Assembly: GCF_001642955.1 (NCBI RefSeq) | Contig: NZ_LWSK01000002.1 | Coordinates: forward strand, 124,001-188,000 | Direction: 5' to 3' | Source: Rubripirellula obstinata | GTDB taxonomy: Bacteria; Planctomycetota; Planctomycetia; Pirellulales; Pirellulaceae | Length of the DNA stretch: 64,000 bases | In this document: positions 51,791-63,845 of the stretch, one piece after another | Numbering within the stretch: position 1 is the first letter of the stretch | Layout of the letters: every line of letters starts with the position of its first letter | Position numbers and translations under genes: made by a program | The notes under the pieces: generated by a model | The model's input: only the letters and a program-made list of their open reading frames with translations | Told to the model about the DNA's origin: nothing | Database searches by the model: none

Positions 51791-51820
51791 CGCCCGGCTG
51801 TTTTGTACGCTGATTTTTTC

Positions 51821-51916
51821 GGGCAAAACGATGGAGGGGAAAAACGATGGTGCGCGGCCGTGATTCGCGGCCGGGTATTCATCACAATATCGTTTTGCCC
51901 CTCCATCGTTTTGCCC
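51821..51916. repeat. Palindrome, GGGCAAAACGATGG family
   Basis: GGGCAAAACGATGGAGGGG (51821 on) matches the complement of the end (CCCCTCCATCGTTTTGCCC, to 51916). Inside is a second AAAACGAT/ATCGTTTT pair and a GCGGCCG inverted repeat. It lies between the SPFH operon and the convergent dehydrogenase gene. A decayed copy in the same orientation lies at 53036-53126. Confidence 0.85.
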
Positions 51917-53035: not shown

Positions 53036-53126
53036 AGTCCGCTGATTTTCTGGGCAAAACGATGAAGGGGCAAAACGATGATTCGCGGCCGTCATTCAGT
53101 CTGGTATTCAGCGCAACATCGTTTTC
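53036..53126. repeat. Decayed copy of the GGGCAAAACGATG palindrome
   Basis: CCGCTGATTTTCTGGGCAAA and what follows match 51809-51900 in order (repeat arm, GCGGCCG, GGTATTCA, ACATCGTTTT). The outer right arm is missing, so the hairpin is incomplete. The two copies flank the dehydrogenase gene in direct orientation. Confidence 0.7.
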
Positions 53127-53272: not shown

Positions 53273-55154
53273 AGACCGACGTGCTTGCTCGGCAGCGAAC
53301 GTAGCATGGCGGCCCTCCGCCGTGTTTATGCCTGGTCGGCAGCGAACGTTGGCGGGTGCCGCCATCGGCGAATTGTTGTATTTCTAAGCTGCCTGCTCGG
53401 CAGCGAACGATAGAGCCCGTCAGCCTTGCATCGGCTGGCGTTTCTAAGCTGCCTGCTCGGCAGCGAACATTTGCCTAGCCCTGTTCGGTGCGCCGCTGTA
53501 TTTCTAAGCTGCCTGCTCGGCAGCGAACGTGCAGTGTCGCGGATGATCGATGGCGCGGGTTTTTCTAAGCTGCCTGCTCGGCAGCGAACCGGCACTTTCG
53601 TCTGTCGCGCACTCCAAAGAATTTCTAAGCTGCCTGCTCGGCAGCGAACAGCCTTAGCCACGCTTGCCGATTTCAATTCATTTTCTAAGCTGCCTGCTCG
53701 GCAGCGAACTTGCCTTCGGTTTCCTTGAGCAGCTTCAGGTATTTCTAAGCTGCCTGCTCGGCAGCGAACAATGGCAACTCCACATTCAGACGCAGTCCTT
53801 TTTTCTAAGCTGCCTGCTCGGCAGCGAACGACATGATTTCCCAACTTGCTGCCTTAGCAATTTTCTAAGCTGCCTGCTCGGCAGCGAACAAGGCACACCT
53901 AGTTTTTCGAGCCGCCGATACATTTCTAAGCTGCCTGCTCGGCAGCGAACAGTCAAATTCGCCGGCGGGACACCAAGCGAGCTTTCTAAGCTGCCTGCTC
54001 GGCAGCGAACAAGTTCCGCATTCACGTAGCCTCTACGATGGTTTTCTAAGCTGCCTGCTCGGCAGCGAACCGCATGCGGATCCTATGTTTGTGATGATGG
54101 GGTTTCTAAGCTGCCTGCTCGGCAGCGAACACGACACGCATTAGAACGCGTACCTTTGTCAGCTTTCTAAGCTGCCTGCTCGGCAGCGAACCGTTTGACG
54201 AATGCCACGTTTACCTACCGCGATTTCTAAGCTGCCTGCTCGGCAGCGAACAACGGGCCTTGGGAGTACTTTGCGGACCGTGATTTCTAAGCTGCCTGCT
54301 CGGCAGCGAACAACGGGCCTTGGGAGTACTTTGCGGACCGTGATTTCTAAGCTGCCTGCTCGGCAGCGAACATTGATCCTGCATTGTTAGCAGTACCAAA
54401 CAGCTTTCTAAGCTGCCTGCTCGGCAGCGAACGTATTCCGCCAATTGAGCGGCGACATCATCGACTTTCTAAGCTGCCTGCTCGGCAGCGAACAACGAAA
54501 GGGAATGACGTGTTGGTTTTATCAATTTCTAAGCTGCCTGCTCGGCAGCGAACCTCGGAGGGTCGCGCGAAAGCACGCAAAAATCTTTCTAAGCTGCCTG
54601 CTCGGCAGCGAACCAACCGAGAACCATCCTTGCTCGCCGGTAACTTTTCTAAGCTGCCTGCTCGGCAGCGAACTTGCTGAATCTTGTCGTAGATTTCCCG
54701 TCGGTTTTCTAAGCTGCCTGCTCGGCAGCGAACAATGTTGTACCGGAGGTGGCGTCCGGCCTGATTTTTCTAAGCTGCCTGCTCGGCAGCGAACATGCCA
54801 GTGTTATTGCTTTCGTACTGGAACGGTTTCTAAGCTGCCTGCTCGGCAGCGAACAACTGGCGAAGCTTGATTCGCTGCCTGAATCGTTTCTAAGCTGCCT
54901 GCTCGGCAGCGAACAACAACACCAGCGAACCGAACGATCGCGATGTTTTCTAAGCTGCCTGCTCGGCAGCGAACGCTCAATTGCCGTAGATAGCGGTGGC
55001 TGAACATTTCTAAGCTGCCTGCTCGGCAGCGAACCGATGGCTGCCGGAGCACGTTGTGCGCTTTGCTTTCTAAGCTGCCTGCTCGGCAGCGAACGCATTC
55101 GATTGTTTCGCGGTAATTGCGTTAACTTTCTAAGCTGCCTGCTCGGCAGCGAAC
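53273..55154 (-). CRISPR. Type I-F CRISPR array, 30 conserved repeats plus two degenerate ones
   Basis: Thirty near-identical 28-bp repeats start at 53381 and end at 55154, with a period of 60 or 61 bp (spacers 32-33 nt). On the plus strand each reads TTTCTAAGCTGCC...GGCAGCGAAC. In crRNA orientation (minus strand) it is GTTCGCTGCC...CTTAGAAA, close to the known I-F consensus, with a GCTGCC/GGCAGC stem and GAGCA loop. The orientation puts the leader at 55155-55282, next to cas6f. Two degraded repeats (about 53273-53300 and 53320-53347) mark the old, trailing end. The spacers at 54252-54283 and 54312-54343 are identical. Spacer targets are not known to me. Confidence 0.98.
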
Positions 55155-55282: not shown

Positions 55283-55927
55283 TTAAAACTCTGGAACGGC
55301 CGTCGTTCCACTTAAACCGTAGGTACTGAAGCACCAATCCTCTCCAGCTTCGGCCATGCTGCGCTCGATGTATAGTCGAAATCGCTGGGCTGTACTGTGA
55401 CTTCGCATGTTGACGTAAGGCAATTGCGAATACCGTGGTTTGAACGTTGCGTACTCGGCCTGTGCCGTGGCCTGATCAAGCCCTTTTCGCTTCATTTGAC
55501 GCCGAATCAATCGGTCTCGCGAACTCTTGGTTTGGCAACGTTTGTAAACGGCATAGCGATTGATCTTTCGCTCCAGCTTTCGCACCGAAGTCAAATGAAC
55601 ATAGTCCAGCAGCCGCGAAAGACGGTTCGACAAGTTCAATTGCAACAAATCATCGTCACTCCGCGCGAACACCCGAATCTTGCTGCCAATCGGAGGCCCT
55701 TGCAATTCATCATGGGTGGTTTTCTGGGACGCGTCGGTCATCACGTCTTCTTGCGATGCTTCTCGGTACTCTGGAAAACTCAATCCGATCCGACAATCCT
55801 GCGTTCCAGCAGCCGACTCGACCAATGCCAAATGGATTTCGTCCATCACTTTTCCCAATACAAAGCCAATGCTGATTTCATGATCGGGTAGGCAAGTGAC
55901 TTCCTGATAGTAATAGGTTGGATTCAT
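55283..55927 (-). CDS. cas6f: Type I-F crRNA endoribonuclease Cas6f (Csy4)
   Basis: This 214-aa protein cuts the CRISPR transcript at the base of the repeat hairpin and stays bound to the crRNA 3' end. I start it at the ATG at 55927 (MNPTYYYQEVTCLPDHEIS), 13 bp after the csy3 stop. The longer frame to 55969 would overlap csy3. The segment GKVMDEIHLALV contains His32, which corresponds to catalytic His29 of Pseudomonas Csy4, followed by RIGLSFPEY as in the family (IGVSFP). Arg-rich stretches (RDRLIRRQMKRKGLD) should contact the hairpin. It is somewhat longer than the usual 185-190 residues. It is the last gene of the cas operon. Confidence 0.93.
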   Translation of the reverse strand: MNPTYYYQEVTCLPDHEISIGFVLGKVMDEIHLALVESAAGTQDCRIGLSFPEYREASQEDVMTDASQKTTHDELQGPPIGSKIRVFARSDDDLLQLNLSNRLSRLLDYVHLTSVRKLERKINRYAVYKRCQTKSSRDRLIRRQMKRKGLDQATAQAEYATFKPRYSQLPYVNMRSHSTAQRFRLYIERSMAEAGEDWCFSTYGLSGTTAVPEF

Positions 55928-55940
55928 TGAACCGATCTTT

Positions 55941-56948
55941 CTACTTGGATGATTTGCCAAACACGCCACCGCGAACCAACATCGCCATCACATAGTGAGC
56001 TTGGTCAGGTTCCAGCTTTCCACCCTGGCCAAATTGATCGAACAATGTATAGAAGTCATTCTTCTCGGTCGGCTTGCGATAGGCGGTGCCTAGGTTGGTC
56101 ACCGCGCCATACGCTTCGACCGCGATCGGGCGCAGCGGTTCGTCTTGATACCATGTGTCAATCGTGCGGATCGCGTTGCCGATTTTCTGCGAGTGCATCC
56201 CTGCCACTCCATCGGTCGAATACAGCACCTTGCTCTTGTCGCCCTTCTCTGTCACCAATTCTTCGCTGGGGTAGACTTCTTGCCCCTTTCCAAGCCTTGA
56301 ATACGCAACGACATCGAACAATGCAAACTCTTGCTCGCCGCATAAACTGGCAGCAATGATCGATGCCAACTCGGATGTCGCTGTTGAATCGAAACCGACC
56401 AGGCCAATCTCTTTGGCGTCGAACGTCGATGACTTTCGATCATCACCATCAATCTTCGTGACAACGATTTCAATCGATTCGGCACCGACTCGATTTCTCC
56501 ACAAGAAGCGACCATTGGCTAGGTTAGTTGCGTAACGCTGTGCCAGTTCCGTAAACCCAGTGGTTTGAATGTAGTCAGCCGCAGCATCACGGTAAGTCGT
56601 TTGGAAACTCGCTAAATTGCATGCCGAAGGTTCTTCGACGCCGCTGAGCACCTTTAGCGTGAACTGAAGCTTCAGCGTGTCGCAATCGGCGGGCAACGAA
56701 CAAATATCGACCGTTTGCAAATTTGGCTTTTCAACTTCCGCATCCAGCTTGGCGGGATCGCTTTCCAATTTCGTTGAAAGACGATTGGAAATCGTGCCAC
56801 GAACAGATTTTTCTTGCAGCGTGAGTGGTTTTCCGTCTTGCTCGTGTCGCTGATTCCAATCGATGCCCGAAAAGCGCCCATCCGATGGGACAAGTTTCTT
56901 CTCGAAGGCGAGTACTGACGGAATCGTCGAGACCGTTTTTTTAGCCAT
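55941..56948 (-). CDS. csy3: Type I-F surveillance-complex backbone protein Cas7f (Csy3)
   Basis: This 335-aa protein, the normal length for Csy3, starts at the ATG at 56948 (MAKKTVSTIPSVLAFEKKLVP) with AAGGAAAT upstream. The open frame reaches 57011, but that would overlap csy2. Six copies in I-F complexes form the helical filament along the crRNA spacer. Family stretches include RFLWRNRVGAESIEIVV and GVAGMHSQKIGNAIRTID. It follows csy2 after 17 bp and is followed by cas6f after 13 bp, so the genes are co-transcribed. Confidence 0.95.
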   Translation of the reverse strand: MAKKTVSTIPSVLAFEKKLVPSDGRFSGIDWNQRHEQDGKPLTLQEKSVRGTISNRLSTKLESDPAKLDAEVEKPNLQTVDICSLPADCDTLKLQFTLKVLSGVEEPSACNLASFQTTYRDAAADYIQTTGFTELAQRYATNLANGRFLWRNRVGAESIEIVVTKIDGDDRKSSTFDAKEIGLVGFDSTATSELASIIAASLCGEQEFALFDVVAYSRLGKGQEVYPSEELVTEKGDKSKVLYSTDGVAGMHSQKIGNAIRTIDTWYQDEPLRPIAVEAYGAVTNLGTAYRKPTEKNDFYTLFDQFGQGGKLEPDQAHYVMAMLVRGGVFGKSSK

Positions 56949-56965
56949 GTTAGATTTCCTTAAGG

Positions 56966-57835
56966 TTAGTTGATTACCGGGACTGAGGGAGAACTTGAAT
57001 TTTGAACACACGCATAGATGTCGCCGTCGTGGTGATAGCGCCAGATCAATTCGGAAAGGCGTTGGATACGAGTCGCCATCACGAACTCGCCCAGCGTGAC
57101 GATGCTTTCAGCAAAACGATGAGGCGTGGATGCGTCGCGTGCCTGGGCTGCAGGACCGACTGGATTGATCGCATGAAAACCGGTCGCGATCGGCACGACC
57201 CATCCCAGTCGATGACGCTGGGATGACCAACTAACCTTACCGTCTTCCGCGATCGTCGAACGATGTTGCACCCGTAAATGACGATGCAGCGCCATCATCG
57301 CGTCATCACCGCCCTGCACTGCCTCGATCATCCAATCGCGGCGATCCATCAATGCATACCCGGGCATCAGCGAGCGAATCGACCTTCGGTCATCGCTGAT
57401 GAACTCCAGTTTCGGCTTGACCAATAGATCTCCGCCCGCCAGCTTCATTCTGGCAAACAAAATATCGCCCAAACGATCTGCATCGCGTTGGCCTCGGGTC
57501 AGCCCGCGGACCTCCAGCACCAACGAAACCGTCATGTGACAGCGTCCTTCTTCGATGAAGGACGATCGCTGGCCTTTTTCATTGAGCGGATTGGCGGTCA
57601 GTTGCAGGGTACGGGAATAGCCGGCTTGATGATCGAGCATCTCGAATTGGTGACTGACAATTCCGACACCGTCGATTTGAAAATCGCCGCTGGGTCCACC
57701 GCCGTTAAAATGACGCTGCAGAGCGTGTCCGAAACCCAAGAACGCAGTCACGGCCGGAAAACCGAATGTCAGTGGACTCGACAGTGCATTGGCACCACGA
57801 ACCTGCAATCGGCGAATGACTAGATACTGACTCAT
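56966..57835 (-). CDS. csy2: Type I-F surveillance-complex protein Cas5f (Csy2)
   Basis: This 289-aa protein binds the crRNA 5' handle together with Csy1. The N-terminus (YLVIRRLQVRGANALSSPLT, then FGFPAVTAFLGFGHALQR) is characteristic of Csy2. Further recognisable parts are the central VSLVLEVRGL and the C-terminal GFHAINPVGP and TPHRFAESIVTLGEF. Its start overlaps the csy1 stop by 4 bp, which points to translational coupling and a 1:1 Csy1-Csy2 pair. Confidence 0.95.
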   Translation of the reverse strand: MSQYLVIRRLQVRGANALSSPLTFGFPAVTAFLGFGHALQRHFNGGGPSGDFQIDGVGIVSHQFEMLDHQAGYSRTLQLTANPLNEKGQRSSFIEEGRCHMTVSLVLEVRGLTRGQRDADRLGDILFARMKLAGGDLLVKPKLEFISDDRRSIRSLMPGYALMDRRDWMIEAVQGGDDAMMALHRHLRVQHRSTIAEDGKVSWSSQRHRLGWVVPIATGFHAINPVGPAAQARDASTPHRFAESIVTLGEFVMATRIQRLSELIWRYHHDGDIYACVQNSSSPSVPVIN

Positions 57836-59058
57836 AGTATGTCCTCCGGCATTTGACGGGCGTATGCTTTCAGTTCTTCCGCAAACGCCGTTTCTTCCGT
57901 TTGACCAAGCACCGCCGCGTCACCGAGATTCTTGCGTAGCTTGCGATACGTCACCACCGTCCATTTGGAAAATGACTCGGCAATCTCTTGCTGCCAATCA
58001 TCATGGTCCTCTCTTTGGTCCAATCGGCCCGAATCAAGCCACAATTTCTGTGCGATTGGCAATCGAACGGATTCATGGTCGCTCCATCCTGGATCGAGTT
58101 GTTGCAACACGACCGCGCGGCAAAACACCCATTCAAATATCGATTCGAACCATTGCTGGCGAGCCTTGCGAATATTGATGTTGGTGTAGTCGCTGCGAAA
58201 GATTCGGTGCAGCGCCGTGTAGATGAACTTTAATTGGTCGTCCCAACGAAGCGTTTCAAAAAAATCACGTTTGGGAATACGCACATGATCTCGGGCTAGC
58301 GTCGGTGGCAGCGATGGGAGCAACCACGCTTCACCGGCATTGTTGCTATTAAGTTTGCTGATGTTCTGCGGCTGGGTGCCTCCGTACCGGACGGTCAGCA
58401 ATCCGAATAGATCATCCAATCCCGTCTCTGACGCTTCGCCTTTCTTACGAGCCTCTCGCGCGGCTTTGGCTTCCTCAGAAAACTTCATGTCCCGAATGCG
58501 GTTTCGATTCTCGGTGACCAATCCTGAAGGCGTCAGAACCGATAGCAGGTGATAGTCATCGCCCACAGGAAAATAGACTTGCTTGACGCCGCCATCGGTC
58601 TTCTGCACGATGTCGCTGGACTTGATTTCCAGCAATCCTTGCCGCCACTGATCGAACACATCTTGTTCGACGCCCAGCATGCCCCGCAGCACTGCCGAGT
58701 TTGATTCCAGATGATCCAGGACGCTGCGCTCATCTGAAAGCACGATAGAAAGAAATGCGTAAACATCAAGCGCGGCAGCATTGCCCAATACATCATGGGG
58801 TGCCGCAACATTACCACTGCGGACATACCCGTCCGGTACTCTTTGCCCGACGTACAGGACTGGCGTGATCTTAGCGTCGGGGTGACTGAATTTCCCCGGA
58901 TGCGAAACCATGCTGAGTTGTCCGGCGCGACGTGCAGCACTGGCAACCCAATTTGCAATTTGGAAATCGCTTTCAATTTCTTCAACCGACTTGCCGCCCG
59001 GCTTCTTCAGCTTCGTCTGCTTGCGTTCATCAAGAAAAGCAACAATTTCATTAGTCAT
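57832..59058 (-). CDS. csy1: Type I-F large subunit Cas8f (Csy1)
   Basis: This 408-aa protein is the PAM-recognising large subunit of the I-F complex, close to the usual length of about 430. The N-terminus is helical and basic (DERKQTKLKKPGGKSVEEIE). The segments SHPGKFSHPDAKITPVLY and GNAAALDVYAFLSIVL are family features, and the C-terminal half has NISKLNSNNAGEAWLLPSLP. The ribosome-binding region is AGGGGG before the ATG. It is the first gene after the 276-bp gap and starts the csy1-csy2-csy3-cas6f unit. Confidence 0.94.
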   Translation of the reverse strand: MTNEIVAFLDERKQTKLKKPGGKSVEEIESDFQIANWVASAARRAGQLSMVSHPGKFSHPDAKITPVLYVGQRVPDGYVRSGNVAAPHDVLGNAAALDVYAFLSIVLSDERSVLDHLESNSAVLRGMLGVEQDVFDQWRQGLLEIKSSDIVQKTDGGVKQVYFPVGDDYHLLSVLTPSGLVTENRNRIRDMKFSEEAKAAREARKKGEASETGLDDLFGLLTVRYGGTQPQNISKLNSNNAGEAWLLPSLPPTLARDHVRIPKRDFFETLRWDDQLKFIYTALHRIFRSDYTNINIRKARQQWFESIFEWVFCRAVVLQQLDPGWSDHESVRLPIAQKLWLDSGRLDQREDHDDWQQEIAESFSKWTVVTYRKLRKNLGDAAVLGQTEETAFAEELKAYARQMPEDIL

Positions 59059-59334
59059 TGATCTCAGCCCCCTGTGATTAGTGTTAGCTGCCTGTTCGGT
59101 AGATCAGTTTTTGTTACGTACAAAACATTTCTAAGCGGTCGAGCATCGCAGTTCAATGACTACCGAATCTGGAACACTCATCTTCCCTAATCGCACACTA
59201 ATAACCAGCCTCGTAGCATCGCGTGAACAACAATTGACGTAACCTCGTCCACTACCAAAATGTCGCACTTGTTTTTATGCGATGCTTATTGGTCCCTTGC
59301 GTGCTCTCATTTGCGAGCCTGCGACCTGAAACGG
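59059..59334 (-). promoter_or_regulatory. Gap inside the cas operon with CRISPR-repeat-like segments
   Basis: The cas1-cas3 and csy1-4 blocks are otherwise overlapping or nearly so, but 276 bp separate cas3 from csy1. Two repeat-like parts lie here. At 59080-59107, 18 of 28 positions match the CRISPR repeat, including AGCTGCCTG and TCGG. At 59128-59136, TTTCTAAGC matches the repeat end exactly. On the minus strand, TTGAAC (59156-59151), 17 nt and TAGAAA (59133-59128) form a plausible promoter overlapping the second repeat-like part. An imperfect palindrome (59107-59126, GTTTT...AAAAC) lies between. It may drive csy1-4, encode a small regulatory RNA, or both; the RNA function is inferred. Confidence 0.5.
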
Positions 59335-62300
59335 CTACTCTCTTCTCGCCCCCGACACACCCGTCCAAACGAATCCGCGATTTCCTTCGTCGTCTCGAAG
59401 ACGAATTTCTCCGAGAAACTCGCAGGTTTGCCGCCTGCCCTTGTCCAATTTCTCCTGCTGGATCTCGATCAACTGCGCGTAGTCGAGCGACAGCCACAAA
59501 CGGTCACGGCAAGAATCTGGCAGTTCATCGATTCTTAGATTGCTGACCGTTTTTCCCAGCGGACCGTCTGATTTGCCAGTGTCAGGATCGACATGCCGAA
59601 AAACCAAATCCTCGGTCTCGCCAAGGTGCAATTTGTACGCGGAATCTTGTTCTGATTGACGAAACCGAGATGCCGGCTGCGCAAGATCAGTCAAGTAGTA
59701 CGCGCACTGTGTCCAGCCTTGCACAAATGCGGGCCGATAGTCGGGCTGCGTAAGAATGTTCCGCAAGACTCGATGTTCCAAATGAACCAAATTTGATTCC
59801 GGCAACAATTCATCAGGGCATTCGATTCGGCTAGACGCGTCGAGCCTTTCTGCCAACTTCGTCGTGTCAACAAGGTCATCAACGCGTTTGGTAAGCAATT
59901 GATATCCGCCGCCTCGATTGGATTGCCCACCCTCAAAACCAGGTCGGTGGAAAACAATTTCAGCAGTCGTCGTGAACGCTTTAAAGTTCAATTGCGGCAA
60001 TATGATGTTGGGTGACGGATTCTCTGCATTGGTTAGCCTATGTCGTCTCACACGCCCAGCCATTTGGATGATCGAACGCATCGATGATGGCTCAATCACA
60101 GCCCAATCGTAATCGTGATCACGACCAACTTCGGCGACTGGACTTGCGACCACCGCGAATATCACATGCGGCTTATCGCTGCGGTCGATATGCGATCGAA
60201 TCACCGGGTGATCAAACGGTGAACGACCCTGTTTTCGATTTAGGACAGCATCAAGGTGTTTTTCCTGCTCCGACCTCAACAACAATACTTGTCGGGCATG
60301 ATACGTCATCGCCCGCAATTCAATGTCATCGGGTAGCTCGCACGTCAACAGGTGTTTGGCTAAGTCAATGCACGGCTCCACATTGGCCAATCGAAGCACG
60401 CCGACCGAAACGTGCTTGCCGGTCTGTCCGTCGATCAACGCATGCCGCCGATGCAAGTCGATCGCTGCAGCAGTCATTTGACGAAACCAGTTCTGTTGCA
60501 GTGTGTGGTCTTCGGTCGGCACCGGGTCAGCGATCTGTCGCACCTCCGCTCGACAAGCGATTTTGGTTTCCTTATTCAGATTCTTCACTCGCTTTTGAAC
60601 AAACTCACGATGCTGTTCCGCGAACTCATCGTCATTGGCGACACGTGCCGTTTTCGCGACATATTCGTCTACCCAGAAACCAGCAACCGTTGCCTGCCGA
60701 TTGCGAAACTTGGCGAACAGTGCCCAGCCCGACGCGTAAGCGTGAAATAATCCCTCCGAGATCGCGGGAGGAATCGTGGCTGAGGAGATCATGACTTTTC
60801 GGCCAAGCATCCCAGCCAAATGAACCAACCGTGCGATCGCCGGCATGTCGGAGTGGTCAAAATCGTCCACTTCGTCGATCACCAAGTCCGCTGCCAACAA
60901 TCGCAGCATCGGTAAAATCTGCCTGCCGCCCCGCGTATTTTCCACCGCTGGCATCAAGTGGTCGATCGTGCAAACCAGCACCGGGCTTTTCAGCAATTGA
61001 CGACTCTTGGCATCGGGCAGCTTTGTGCTGATGGCATCGTCGGGGATAAGATCGTCGTAGGCGAATTCGAATCCCGCACTCAAGTCGATGTGTGATTCGG
61101 AACCGGTAGTTTCGTTGGCGACATCATTGCCGTTGTTCTCCACATTGGCTTCACCTCTCTGAGCATGCAACGCACGAACGGCGGCTGATCCGACCAAAAT
61201 GGCGAGCTCGTTTTGATCGAGTCTCAACTTCTCTCGATACTCGTCGCCAGTCTGTAGCGTCAGCGTCCGCAGCCCCAAGGCTAAAGAGTACCGCAGCCCC
61301 TGGGGACTAATCGCGTCCATGATCTTGGCATTGGCGAACGTCTTGCCTTTGCCGGTGCTGGCCATGTTGACGGCAAAGAATCCCATTTCGTCAATGGAGT
61401 AATCTTGCTGCCACCGACGTAGCGAATCGACCGCTTTGTTTTGCCATTGATAGGGAGCCGGAGATGGCTTGCGGAGCGGCCGAATATTTTGCGCGGTTGG
61501 CAATTCCGTTTCAAACTTCGGCAGTAAATGGCTGGCATTGACTGCTGCTTCGGTGACATAAACCAAGTGCTCATCAAGCCGCTGTCGCATCGCCCCCTTT
61601 TTTGAAATGACACGACCAGTACGTGATTCATTCGCATCTCGGCTGTACGTGTTTGCGAAGGGTGGCCAATCACCAGGCCAAGATTTGCTTTCGGGCTTAG
61701 AAGAATACTGATGATCCCCGAGCATCAACGTCATTCGTGAAAGCGTTAACAACAATCGCTGACACTCAGCCAATGAGTCGATCCTCGTCCGCCCAAAATG
61801 CTGTATCTCATCGCCCAGTTTTCTCCCCCATCGCGACGCCTCTTTACACCAGGCCGAAGAAATCCAAGGGAGTTCGTGCTTGAACTTCCAGTGCTTCGCA
61901 ATGTCCAACGGGAACTCTGGTGTTTTCTCGAAACCAGTCGTCACATCAATTTGCTCCAACAGATTGCTCTCGTCGCGGACACACGACTCGCCGAACCCAT
62001 CCAAATTTAATCGTGGCAAACGATGGTGCGAGAGAATCAACCAAGCAATCCAATTGGTCAGCGTTGAGTGTGCAAGGTCAAATGGGTAGGTATTTGACTG
62101 CGCAATGTTCTTAGCCGTGTCCTGGATCACGCGAGATTGCTTCTTTCGATCTTTTGCGGACGTTTCCCGCAATCGAGCCAAATCCATCAACCATTGGGCG
62201 TCATCTTTTCCTTCCACGAAAGCCAAGAACAACAACATCGAAACCCACTCGTGACGAACCGGATCTCGCTTGTCGGATCCGGGCTTAGGTGGATTCTTTA

Positions 62301-62706
62301 GCATTGCTTGGAAAGGATCCCATGCTTTGCCAAAATCATGAAATAGTCCAGCGATCGCAACGATTGACTTTAGCATCGAAAGGTACTGCCAATCGTCCTC
62401 GTCATGTTCTCGCAATAGATCTCGCCCAGTTCGATTGACTGGCACATTCCCCTGAGTGTCAAACCGGTCCCGATTACCGACGATCCAAAGCAGTTCGGTT
62501 CGCCGCGTGCCGCGAATGCGGTGACAGGCGACTGCCGTCGTTTTACGGGCAGTCTTGGACAACCGCGATCGAACCGCCTGCAGACCTTGTTCGGTCATTA
62601 CGGCTTGCCATGTTCGCTGACCAATTCGATGCGCGTAAGCGTCCAACACTTGCCGAGTCAATTTCAACGATTTCTTTTGGCATTCCGAAACGAACGTCAC
62701 AATCAC
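59335..62706 (-). CDS. cas3: Type I-F Cas2-Cas3 fusion nuclease-helicase
   Basis: This 1123-aa protein joins three parts. Residues about 1-95 are the Cas2-like adaptor, which lets it assemble with Cas1. The HD nuclease follows (GLFHDFGKAWDPF, His123-Asp124; a further His in RHEWVSML). The superfamily-2 helicase has Walker A MASTGKGKTF (about 447), DEVD box LVIDEVDDFDHSD (about 610), motif III SSATIP and the C-terminal QMAGRVRRHR (about 883). All active-site elements look intact. The protein would help acquire spacers and degrade DNA marked by the Csy complex. Its start overlaps the cas1 stop by 4 bp, and the next gene on the strand comes after a 276-bp gap. Confidence 0.96.
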   Translation of the reverse strand: MIVTFVSECQKKSLKLTRQVLDAYAHRIGQRTWQAVMTEQGLQAVRSRLSKTARKTTAVACHRIRGTRRTELLWIVGNRDRFDTQGNVPVNRTGRDLLREHDEDDWQYLSMLKSIVAIAGLFHDFGKAWDPFQAMLKNPPKPGSDKRDPVRHEWVSMLLFLAFVEGKDDAQWLMDLARLRETSAKDRKKQSRVIQDTAKNIAQSNTYPFDLAHSTLTNWIAWLILSHHRLPRLNLDGFGESCVRDESNLLEQIDVTTGFEKTPEFPLDIAKHWKFKHELPWISSAWCKEASRWGRKLGDEIQHFGRTRIDSLAECQRLLLTLSRMTLMLGDHQYSSKPESKSWPGDWPPFANTYSRDANESRTGRVISKKGAMRQRLDEHLVYVTEAAVNASHLLPKFETELPTAQNIRPLRKPSPAPYQWQNKAVDSLRRWQQDYSIDEMGFFAVNMASTGKGKTFANAKIMDAISPQGLRYSLALGLRTLTLQTGDEYREKLRLDQNELAILVGSAAVRALHAQRGEANVENNGNDVANETTGSESHIDLSAGFEFAYDDLIPDDAISTKLPDAKSRQLLKSPVLVCTIDHLMPAVENTRGGRQILPMLRLLAADLVIDEVDDFDHSDMPAIARLVHLAGMLGRKVMISSATIPPAISEGLFHAYASGWALFAKFRNRQATVAGFWVDEYVAKTARVANDDEFAEQHREFVQKRVKNLNKETKIACRAEVRQIADPVPTEDHTLQQNWFRQMTAAAIDLHRRHALIDGQTGKHVSVGVLRLANVEPCIDLAKHLLTCELPDDIELRAMTYHARQVLLLRSEQEKHLDAVLNRKQGRSPFDHPVIRSHIDRSDKPHVIFAVVASPVAEVGRDHDYDWAVIEPSSMRSIIQMAGRVRRHRLTNAENPSPNIILPQLNFKAFTTTAEIVFHRPGFEGGQSNRGGGYQLLTKRVDDLVDTTKLAERLDASSRIECPDELLPESNLVHLEHRVLRNILTQPDYRPAFVQGWTQCAYYLTDLAQPASRFRQSEQDSAYKLHLGETEDLVFRHVDPDTGKSDGPLGKTVSNLRIDELPDSCRDRLWLSLDYAQLIEIQQEKLDKGRRQTCEFLGEIRLRDDEGNRGFVWTGVSGARRE

Positions 62707-63674
62707 GGCATCGCCTCGCCACCCGGCATCGCATCACCACGCTGCGCAGCCGCCTTGACGACATCGAACATGAAATCGAGCGATTGGTGCCGCGTCATCG
62801 CTTCTAAGCATTCTTCACGAAACTCACGTTCCAACAAACCTTCGGCGGAAGCGATGAACGCCAGCGGCAGAATTATTGCATCCTTGACCAAGTCTGCGAC
62901 GTCAAACACCAATGCGCCTCGGCGGGTCTTGCCGTGCATCACAGCAAAACCATGCGGGATACCAAGGCACCACAAACATGTGGCCGCTGATCCATAGGCC
63001 AAGTAGTTCCCATGGCTAAGAAACTGGTTGGCAAGATCCGTCTTATCGGGATCTCGAACAAATCCTTGCTGGCCCGTCGCGTTGGCAGCGTGCTTATACA
63101 ATTCCTTCGCCAATCGACCTTCCGCTGTCAACAACTGAGTAACATTCTCGGCGTTCTTGGCGTGCTGCTGGTGGGCCGCGAAAGCGCGGTCGAGCCTCAT
63201 GTCCTCGACATCGAACCCATACTCTTTGAATCGCGAATCTTTGCCCCAAATGGCCTTTAAAAACTCGATGCGTTTTGATTGAAAGAACCGTGCAATCTGC
63301 AAACGCTTACGATCGTCGAACCAGAACTTCAGCCATGCCTGAACATACTCGGTTGGTCGGTACTCGGATTGAGGCGAGAACCACTCGACTTCGGTGGATG
63401 AAATCAACGGAGTTCCTCCACCACCGCAGAACCCGATCATGACACCAGCCTCGGCCATCATGCGCACCGCTGCCTGCGTGATCGATGTCCCAGTCCCCAG
63501 CAACACGGCGGTGGTGTTAGCAACGGGAATATTCCAATAGGCGTTCTCTTTCTGCCCTTTCTCAGCCCTCAGGAACAAGACGCGCCCTTCCTTAACCAGG
63601 ACACGGCAATGTTCGAGATACTGCAAGTTCCCACGCTTCGAGTGTAGTATCTCTCTCGGTTTTCTTGATTGCAT
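62703..63674 (-). CDS. cas1: CRISPR integrase Cas1 (type I-F)
   Basis: This 323-aa protein inserts new spacers at the leader end, in complex with the Cas2 part of Cas2-3. The N-terminus (KPREILHSKRGNLQYLEHCRV) and the segment NTTAVLLGTGTSITQAAVRM are typical of I-F Cas1. The active site is intact: Glu185 in LLTAEGRLAK, His247 in FAVMHGKTRRG and Asp258/Asp261 in LVFDVADLVKD. It heads the operon. No good ribosome-binding site is seen, and a TATAAC only 8 nt before the ATG hints at a leaderless transcript (inferred). Confidence 0.96.
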   Translation of the reverse strand: MQSRKPREILHSKRGNLQYLEHCRVLVKEGRVLFLRAEKGQKENAYWNIPVANTTAVLLGTGTSITQAAVRMMAEAGVMIGFCGGGGTPLISSTEVEWFSPQSEYRPTEYVQAWLKFWFDDRKRLQIARFFQSKRIEFLKAIWGKDSRFKEYGFDVEDMRLDRAFAAHQQHAKNAENVTQLLTAEGRLAKELYKHAANATGQQGFVRDPDKTDLANQFLSHGNYLAYGSAATCLWCLGIPHGFAVMHGKTRRGALVFDVADLVKDAIILPLAFIASAEGLLEREFREECLEAMTRHQSLDFMFDVVKAAAQRGDAMPGGEAMP

Positions 63675-63728
63675 GAATCGTTATATCGACAAGATGTGGA
63701 GATCAGCTTTCTAGCAATGGAAAAATCA

Positions 63729-63845
63729 ACTTAAACTTAAACTCGAACTTAAACTCGAACTTAAACTTAAACCGCTGATTCGGCTTGATTGTTGATCGAA
63801 TTAAGAAACGTTTAAGTTTAAGTTCGAGTTTAAGTTTAAGTTTAA
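63729..63845. repeat. Inverted array of ACTTAA/ACTCGA hexamers
   Basis: From 63729 to 63772 the sequence is built of hexamers ACTTAA and ACTCGA. From 63810 to 63845 it is built of the complementary TTTAAG and TTCGAG units. The arms can pair over about 35 bp around a 37-bp loop. The element lies between divergent cas1 and the partial gene at 63861 and may include their promoters. Confidence 0.88.

Follow-up and report, generated by a model that had tools for sequence, protein, structure and literature searches.

Type I CRISPR-Cas loci, those of subtype I-F1 included, reportedly carry regulatory mini-arrays in which two standalone repeat-like parts enclose a spacer with partial complementarity to a cas promoter, above all that of cas8. 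This work is ascribed to Shmakov et al. 2023, and an I-F1 case is said to have been tested experimentally there. Self-repressing mini-arrays are thus already known as a kind, and crRNA-like RNAs by which cas genes repress themselves are summarised in two further reports, where the CreR guides of subtypes I-B, I-E and V-A are partly complementary to a cas promoter (PMC12737573, PMC13131331). Among related elements, the first repeat of CreTA (psiR1) is outlined as more diverged than the second (psiR2) (PMC9458426), and RacrIF1 and solitary repeat units are presented as mimics of the I-F repeat outside an array, RacrIF1 being phage-borne and not itself a guide (PMC10651486). Viral mini-arrays and a protein repressor are the subjects, in outline, of PMC11656645 and PMC10810281.

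The locus analysed here lies in a 64-kb stretch of Rubripirellula obstinata DNA (NZ_LWSK01000002.1, positions 124,001 to 188,000; hereafter the window). Like the mini-arrays of Shmakov et al. 2023, it possesses two standalone repeat-like parts around a spacer; unlike them, its stems are broken and no target was found. Units in three other loci (L026, L068 and L018) differ from those mini-arrays in another respect, being situated between the target and csy1 and thus presumably embedded in the leader. In comparison with CreR, the present units belong to subtype I-F and have short spacers, and the R. obstinata copy is apparently inactive. The greater divergence of the first repeat in CreTA recurs in the stems of 26 of the loci surveyed below and in R. 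obstinata, where the psiR1 counterpart has lost its stem; however, no toxin is known at the R. obstinata locus and the target in its relatives is the csy1 promoter region. RacrIF1 shares with the R. obstinata unit the mimicry of an I-F repeat outside an array, but the latter resides in a cas operon and has a handle-spacer-stem layout.

We consider the unit to be probably a decayed CreR-type autorepressor whose regulatory loop is likely defunct in this organism. Other I-F loci lend strong support to the kind of element, a mini-CRISPR autorepressing csy1-4. The titles and abstract openings of part of the literature matches contain no planctomycete I-F mini-arrays or leader-embedded units, which the text of Shmakov et al. 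2023 may hold. Unless included there, two features may be new: the embedding of the unit in the leader of planctomycete-type loci, and the two clusters of spacer length described below.

A repeat-like unit between cas3 and csy1

The window holds a complete type I-F cas locus on the minus strand (cas1f, cas3f, csy1, csy2, csy3, csy4; Table 1), which belongs to subtype I-F1 by its cas1, cas3f and csy1-4 genes, 28-nt repeat and period of approximately 60 nt. We take the cas3f gene (59335-62706) to be a cas2-cas3 fusion. Only one long gap, 59059-59334, separates the cas genes. An earlier note on this DNA had proposed that this gap contains a mini-CRISPR or an operator, and its coordinates for the gap and for all parts proved correct. 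In the gap, read along the operon strand, one copy of a repeat dispersed in the genome (59205-59159) is followed by a CRISPR repeat end (59136-59128), 20 nt, a repeat-like 28-mer (59107-59080) and then csy1 (59058).

Table 1. Features of the R. obstinata type I-F locus, numbered from the first letter of the window.
Feature	Position	Strand	Description
cas1f	62703-63674	-	TIGR03637
cas3f	59335-62706	-	TIGR02562
csy1 (cas8f)	57832-59058	-	TIGR02564, E 1.1e-66
csy2	56966-57835	-	TIGR02565
csy3 (cas7f)	55941-57011	-	TIGR02566
csy4 (cas6f)	55283-55969	-	TIGR02563
CRISPR array	53282-55154	-	repeat GTTCGCTGCCGAGCAGGCAGCTTAGAAA as read on the crRNA strand; period mostly 60-61 nt; degenerate units at the distal end
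cas3-csy1 intergenic gap	59059-59334	-	between the Cas3f and Csy1 ORFs; csy1 leader side is the low-coordinate end
Dispersed genomic repeat copy, 47 bp	59159-59205	-	TTATTAGTGTGCGATTAGGGAAGATGAGTGTTCCAG...; adjoins the mini-array; 92% match to contig C46
First-repeat remnant (R1)	59128-59136	-	G20 plus 8-nt 5' handle CTTAGAAA; equals the array repeat end
Spacer or would-be guide, 20 nt	59108-59127	-	TGTTTTGTACGTAACAAAAA
Second repeat-like copy (R2)	59080-59107	-	18/28 overall, core 15/18, handle 4/8
R2 stem-loop part	59088-59102	-	CTACCGAACAGGCAG; 4/5 pairs, one A-C mismatch
Inverted half-unit of dispersed repeat	59076-59085	+	GATTAGTGTT; overlaps TAATCACA
PAM and protospacer of the earlier note	59186-59195	+	CC-TAATCGCA; within the dispersed repeat; chance level

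The repeat end GCTTAGAAA at 59136-59128 is identical to the end of the array repeat, as had been noted; upstream of this remnant (59128-59136) no repeat stem is present in register. The minus-strand spacing of about 20 nt that had been likened to a repeat-spacer-repeat unit is likewise borne out by a spacer of 20 nt (59127-59108). R2, read on the minus strand (CTGATCTACCGAACAGGCAGCTAACACT), shares 18 of its 28 positions with the array repeat GTTCGCTGCCGAGCAGGCAGCTTAGAAA, including, according to the earlier note, most of the stem. This overall score is not special, since it also occurs outside the array at 58665-58692 (plus strand) and 62742-62769 (minus strand) in the window and arose 27 times in 4000 when the dinucleotides of the gap were shuffled. 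The core score of 15/18, however, has no equal in the 64 kb apart from the array itself, the runner-up having 13, and was attained by none of 4000 shuffles, and a joint handle-plus-stem score was equalled by a single shuffle in 4000.

Several features of a CreR-type element are found here, namely two repeat-like parts outside the array but within the cas locus, a location before cas8f/csy1, and a spacer of 20 nt, within the range of 18-28 nt seen in 29 of the 31 target-bearing units described below. Stems cleavable by Cas6f are not among them: R1 forms 2/5 pairs in register and R2 4/5, as against 5/5 pairs in 28/31 R1 and 30/31 R2 stems of the intact units (from the best 80 of 550 loci). Immediately ahead of the handle, a 4-bp pairing CGGT...ACCG that encloses a large loop, spotted by eye, is a candidate that could replace the R1 stem, and the surviving R2 core together with the exact 9-nt repeat end could indicate some residual use. 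Predicted folding does not decide the matter: z values were 0.41 for R. obstinata, -0.47 for L068, -0.80 for L018 and -1.70 for L026, such that the R. obstinata unit does not exceed shuffles, L068 and L018 do not clearly do so either, and R. obstinata is not separated from its relatives. The R2 hairpin is part of the predicted lowest-energy fold in L068 and L018 and absent from that of L026 and R. obstinata.

Elsewhere in and around the locus, two consecutive array units at 54223-54371 share one spacer sequence (89-nt copies at 100% identity, offset by 60 nt), and the degenerate repeat units at the distal array end (53282-53362) are spaced at 47 and 61 nt. A short 12-nt tandem repeat resembling AACTTAAACTCG occupies 63728-63772, directly upstream of cas1, and a 52-nt sequence present at 51815-51866 and 53046-53097 (87% identity) flanks a 2-hydroxyacid dehydrogenase-like gene.

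Mini-arrays before csy1 in other type I-F loci

Loci for comparison were drawn from a Csy3 profile scan, the best 80 of 550 being joined by L018 and R. obstinata to give 82; exclusion of two without a Csy1 match and three with too little DNA before csy1 left 77, a few of which have less than 600 nt of upstream DNA. Units were chosen by repeat likeness alone and a target was sought afterwards. Selection of targets used the 15 non-flipped positions (guide positions 1-17 except 6 and 12) with a threshold of at least 12/15, leaving positions 6, 12 and from 18 onwards outside the selection. Among the 77 loci (from the best 80 of 550), a unit was called in 46, and in 31 a CC-flanked site before csy1 agreed with the guide at 12 or more of the 15 positions; the loci are not independent (they include two Legionella and several Selenomonas and Vreelandella) and these counts are descriptive. 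With GG, AA or TT as control PAMs, the same 31 loci reached at most 11/15. No unit was called in the other 31 of the 77 (again from the best 80 of 550), which counts against the element being general. The unit-bearing loci without a target at this threshold number 15 of 46, mostly with low repeat scores; R. obstinata is one of them, L081, whose spacer is 32 nt long, resembles a genuine array, and a score of 11 is attained by L095, also with 32 nt, and by L105.

Over the 31 matched loci, guide positions 1-5 always agree with the target, positions 6 and 12 agree in 45%, positions 7-11 and 13-17 in 74-100%, and positions from 18 onwards in 19-45%. Spacers fall into two clusters, of 18-20 nt (16/31) and 24-28 nt (13/31), with one of 15 and one of 37 nt. 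The array length of 32 nt occurs in none of the 31 target-bearing units (from the best 80 of 550), and 20 nt, the length found in R. obstinata, is the commonest. Examples from the clusters are L028, L030, L036, L045, L047, L059 and L067, with pairing over approximately 17 nt. A promoter-like pair scoring at least 8/12 starts no more than 3 nt from the target in 21/31 loci, compared with 519/6200 sites placed at random in these regions; the ten loci without such an abutting pair include L018 (4/12). In a cruder test, the target overlapped the single best promoter of the region in 10/31 loci against 4.9 expected.

Handle identity to the array averages 7.6/8 in the first repeat of the 31 loci and 3.7/8 (range 0-8) in the second. 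In the 26 of these loci that have their own array, the R1 stems contain 13 compensatory pair changes in 11 loci with 4/130 pairs broken, and the R2 stems contain no compensatory change with 1/130 broken. The compensatory changes in R1 indicate selection on the RNA stem in loci that have an intact unit. Upstream of csy1, L058 and L061 (Wohlfahrtiimonas) have a single repeat-like unit, AAACTCTGCTGAAAAAGCAGCTTAGCGG, for which no target was found and which is perhaps another decayed or divergent unit.

Close relatives of the R. obstinata gap proved scarce. Csy1 was found in 5/241 genomes of the family, R. obstinata included. Apart from R. obstinata, none of the genomes in this set that belong to its genus has Csy1, and no close relative of the gap was found; an intact ancestor of the R. 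obstinata unit can consequently only be inferred. An even draw of 392 genomes across the phylum contained Csy1 once, in R. obstinata itself, a plasmid search with Csy1 returned 16 records, and a first scan of genome contigs with Csy1 alone returned nothing. The comparison with planctomycete relatives that the earlier note had recommended gave a divided answer. A clear repeat-spacer-repeat is present in the cas3-csy1 gap of L068 (same contig as L016) and of L018, and there is no mini-array in L027 (= L015) and L094 (= L017) (Rhodopirellula maiorica), where chance seed runs of 10 and 9 were found without a handle. L027 is about as near to the R. obstinata Csy1 as L068 is, yet lacks the unit.

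Among the first 18 positions of the 26-nt L068 guide, all but 6 and 12 match CC-TTTTTAGTTTTATTGGTT; among the first 17 positions of the 28-nt L018 guide, all but position 6 match CC-TAGTATTTCGTTAGTTT. Non-flipped matches at the CC site amount to 15/15 in L068, 15/15 in L018 and 14/15 in L026. When all guide starts were scanned against all CC sites in six loci, these three pairs ranked top locally, and each guide begins directly after the handle. L026 is filed as a Candidatus Neomarinimicrobiota MAG and its Csy3 is 69% identical to that of R. obstinata, the highest among the matches listed; mis-binning or transfer is a possible explanation of its placement.

On the operon strand, the mini-array of L026, L068 and L018 follows the target and precedes csy1, which would place it in the csy1 leader; the remaining 28 of the 31 loci (from the best 80 of 550) have their mini-array upstream of the target. 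The guide starts at -69 relative to csy1 in R. obstinata, -70 in L026, -75 in L068 and -160 in L018, and the second repeat at -49 in R. obstinata, -44 in L026 and -49 in L068. Thus, the R. obstinata unit occupies the leader position seen in L026 and L068, and the L018 unit is located elsewhere.

Guide and target in R. obstinata

The guide at the place expected from the intact units, TGTTTTGTACGTAACAAAAA (59127-59108), finds no comparable target. Its best CC-flanked site near csy1 agrees at just 8/15 positions, below the levels of the 31 matched loci, and across the genome a pattern of PAM plus guide with up to two mismatches gave 7 matches, the guide itself included, compared with 12 for a reversed control. 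The match of spacer to PAM-flanked cas promoter site that marks CreR-type elements is accordingly missing, both locally and at genome level. One of the 7 genome places is the guide itself and five fall within stop-free frames of more than 300 codons; the remaining one (L025) has frames of 156 and 171 codons only and may be a promoter site. When the PAM was relaxed to C at -1 or -2, agreement rose to at most 9/15, and with any PAM to at most 12/15 elsewhere, at a place where the palindromic spacer matches itself beside a TT flank. The single promoter listed by a scan of the gap is on the plus strand; for the operon strand, a looser score reached 8/12 at best. The search for targets is blind to guides with a very short or unusual match.

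The earlier note had assigned the guide differently, to the sequence TAATCACA following the second repeat (59080-59073, minus strand), which was to bind CC-TAATCGCA (59186-59195, plus strand) and repress csy1. Both sequences are present, seven non-flipped seed positions agree next to a CC PAM, and the target strand has the same orientation as in L026, L068 and L018. However, intact units carry their matched guide between the repeats, after the first handle, and the R2 handle that would precede TAATCACA is degenerate (4/8), as is usual in the 31 loci. The register is also one base off, as that note had itself cautioned, and no third repeat was found downstream to terminate the crRNA. When every guide start was compared with every CC site within 800 nt around the csy1 start, the pair came sixth among the ten pairs listed, five others scoring equal or higher and three having longer seed runs, and a guide after R2 gave no supported target in either the canonical or a shifted register. 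Moreover, both halves lie in pieces of the dispersed repeat; since TAATCACA overlaps an inverted half-unit and TAATCGCA is inside the repeat copy, their likeness has another source, and we regard this pairing as extremely improbable. What survives of the proposal is its kind, seen with a matched CC site in 31/77 I-F loci (from the best 80 of 550), and not the guide and target that it named. Nor is present autorepression of csy1 in R. obstinata supported, because the guide in the expected place is without a comparable PAM-flanked target.

Three other explanations of the unit were weighed against decay. A mini-array that still works would yield an RNA loading a Csy complex with four Cas7 subunits, either directed at an unrecognised target (a gene, a mobile element or a site paired through a very short seed) or acting by titration of Csy subunits. 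The exact repeat end, the 20-nt spacer and the retained R2 core are in keeping with this, as are the full family matches of all csy genes and a site elsewhere in the genome with 17 of the 20 guide bases, the single other place found at up to three mismatches. That site has TT in the place of the PAM, though, CC-flanked genome sites are not above the reversed control, and the absent R1 stem and mismatched R2 are unlike nearly all 31 intact units; we think continued function unlikely. The spacer is also a near-perfect palindrome (GTTTTGTACGTAACAAAAAC, 59107-59126), and inverted pieces of the dispersed repeat flank the mini-array on both sides. The palindrome with these inverted repeats might instead be a repressor site or parts of a mobile palindromic element, the repeat likeness being accidental. 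This is very unlikely in our judgement, given that the core and joint likeness to the repeat are significant and occur at the position of the L026 and L068 units, and that the 20-mer has just one further genomic place at three or fewer mismatches. Chance resemblance without any mini-array ancestry would accommodate the guide that lacks a target and the overall score of 18/28, which recurs at two further places in the window and arose in 27 of 4000 shuffles. It does not sit well with the core and joint scores (0 and 1 of 4000 shuffles) or with the agreement of order, strand and position with L026 and L068, and is highly improbable. Decay thus remains the preferred reading, and the loop is probably defunct in R. 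obstinata given the lack of a comparable target, the loss of the R1 stem, the mismatch in R2 and the adjoining dispersed repeat.

Proposed mechanism of the intact element and its probable loss

In Aggregatibacter I-F1, complexes with shortened spacers are described as containing fewer Cas7 subunits according to L = 6N - 4, such that 20 nt corresponds to 4 and 26 nt to 5 (PMC7296934). The same account reports that I-F complexes with 20- and 26-nt spacers bind CC-flanked targets more weakly than wild type, their affinity declining with spacer length, and form R-loops, that those shortened by 6 or 12 nt relative to wild type leave Cas2/3 untriggered, and that binding by truncated complexes in vivo drops with spacer length (PMC7296934). 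The spacer clusters of 18-20 and 24-28 nt found here are near these 20- and 26-nt forms for 4 and 5 Cas7.

Where the element is intact, Cas6f (Csy4) would process the csy1 leader transcript to a short crRNA-like guide; from the R. obstinata unit, such a processed RNA would start with CUUAGAAA at 59135 and end at 59088. The short guide would assemble a shortened Csy complex that binds through approximately 17 interrupted base pairs and a CC PAM, and we infer that this complex, positioned beside the csy1 promoter, would block transcription. Cas3 would stay untriggered because the R-loop would be too short. The 31 loci together point to a design rule of guides mostly of 18-20 or 24-28 nt, some 17 interrupted base pairs and a site beside the promoter; if true, this would explain how a nuclease-recruiting complex can act on its own chromosome without cutting it. 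Our results suggest that the I-F self-repression circuit reaches planctomycetes, that it can be leader-embedded there and that it can be lost.

In R. obstinata, the promoter and target region appears to have been rearranged and the regulatory loop lost, so that csy1-4 would probably be expressed without autorepression. It is a guess that the arrival of the dispersed repeat caused this loss. A more elaborate scheme, in which planctomycete-type I-F loci keep the guide in the csy1 mRNA leader, Cas6f cuts this guide out of the message encoding the effector, a complex of 4 or 5 Cas7 silences guide and effector alike, and the R. obstinata module is still alive but was retargeted after the dispersed repeat arrived, is as a whole distinctly unlikely.

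The dispersed repeat belongs to a partly palindromic family, ATTAGTGTGCGATTAGCGAAGATTAGTGTTCC, with further copies on contigs C46, C266 and C108 of R. obstinata; positions recorded for the family include L006 (1500-1550), L008 (1500-1533 and 1966-1997) and L009 (1475-1537). Searched as a pattern with up to two mismatches, it occurs in 4/59 other relatives, three of them among 21 further genomes of the genus and the fourth from a different family. A second, different repeated piece is present in the gap at 59215-59241, where 27 bp match contig C221 at 96%.
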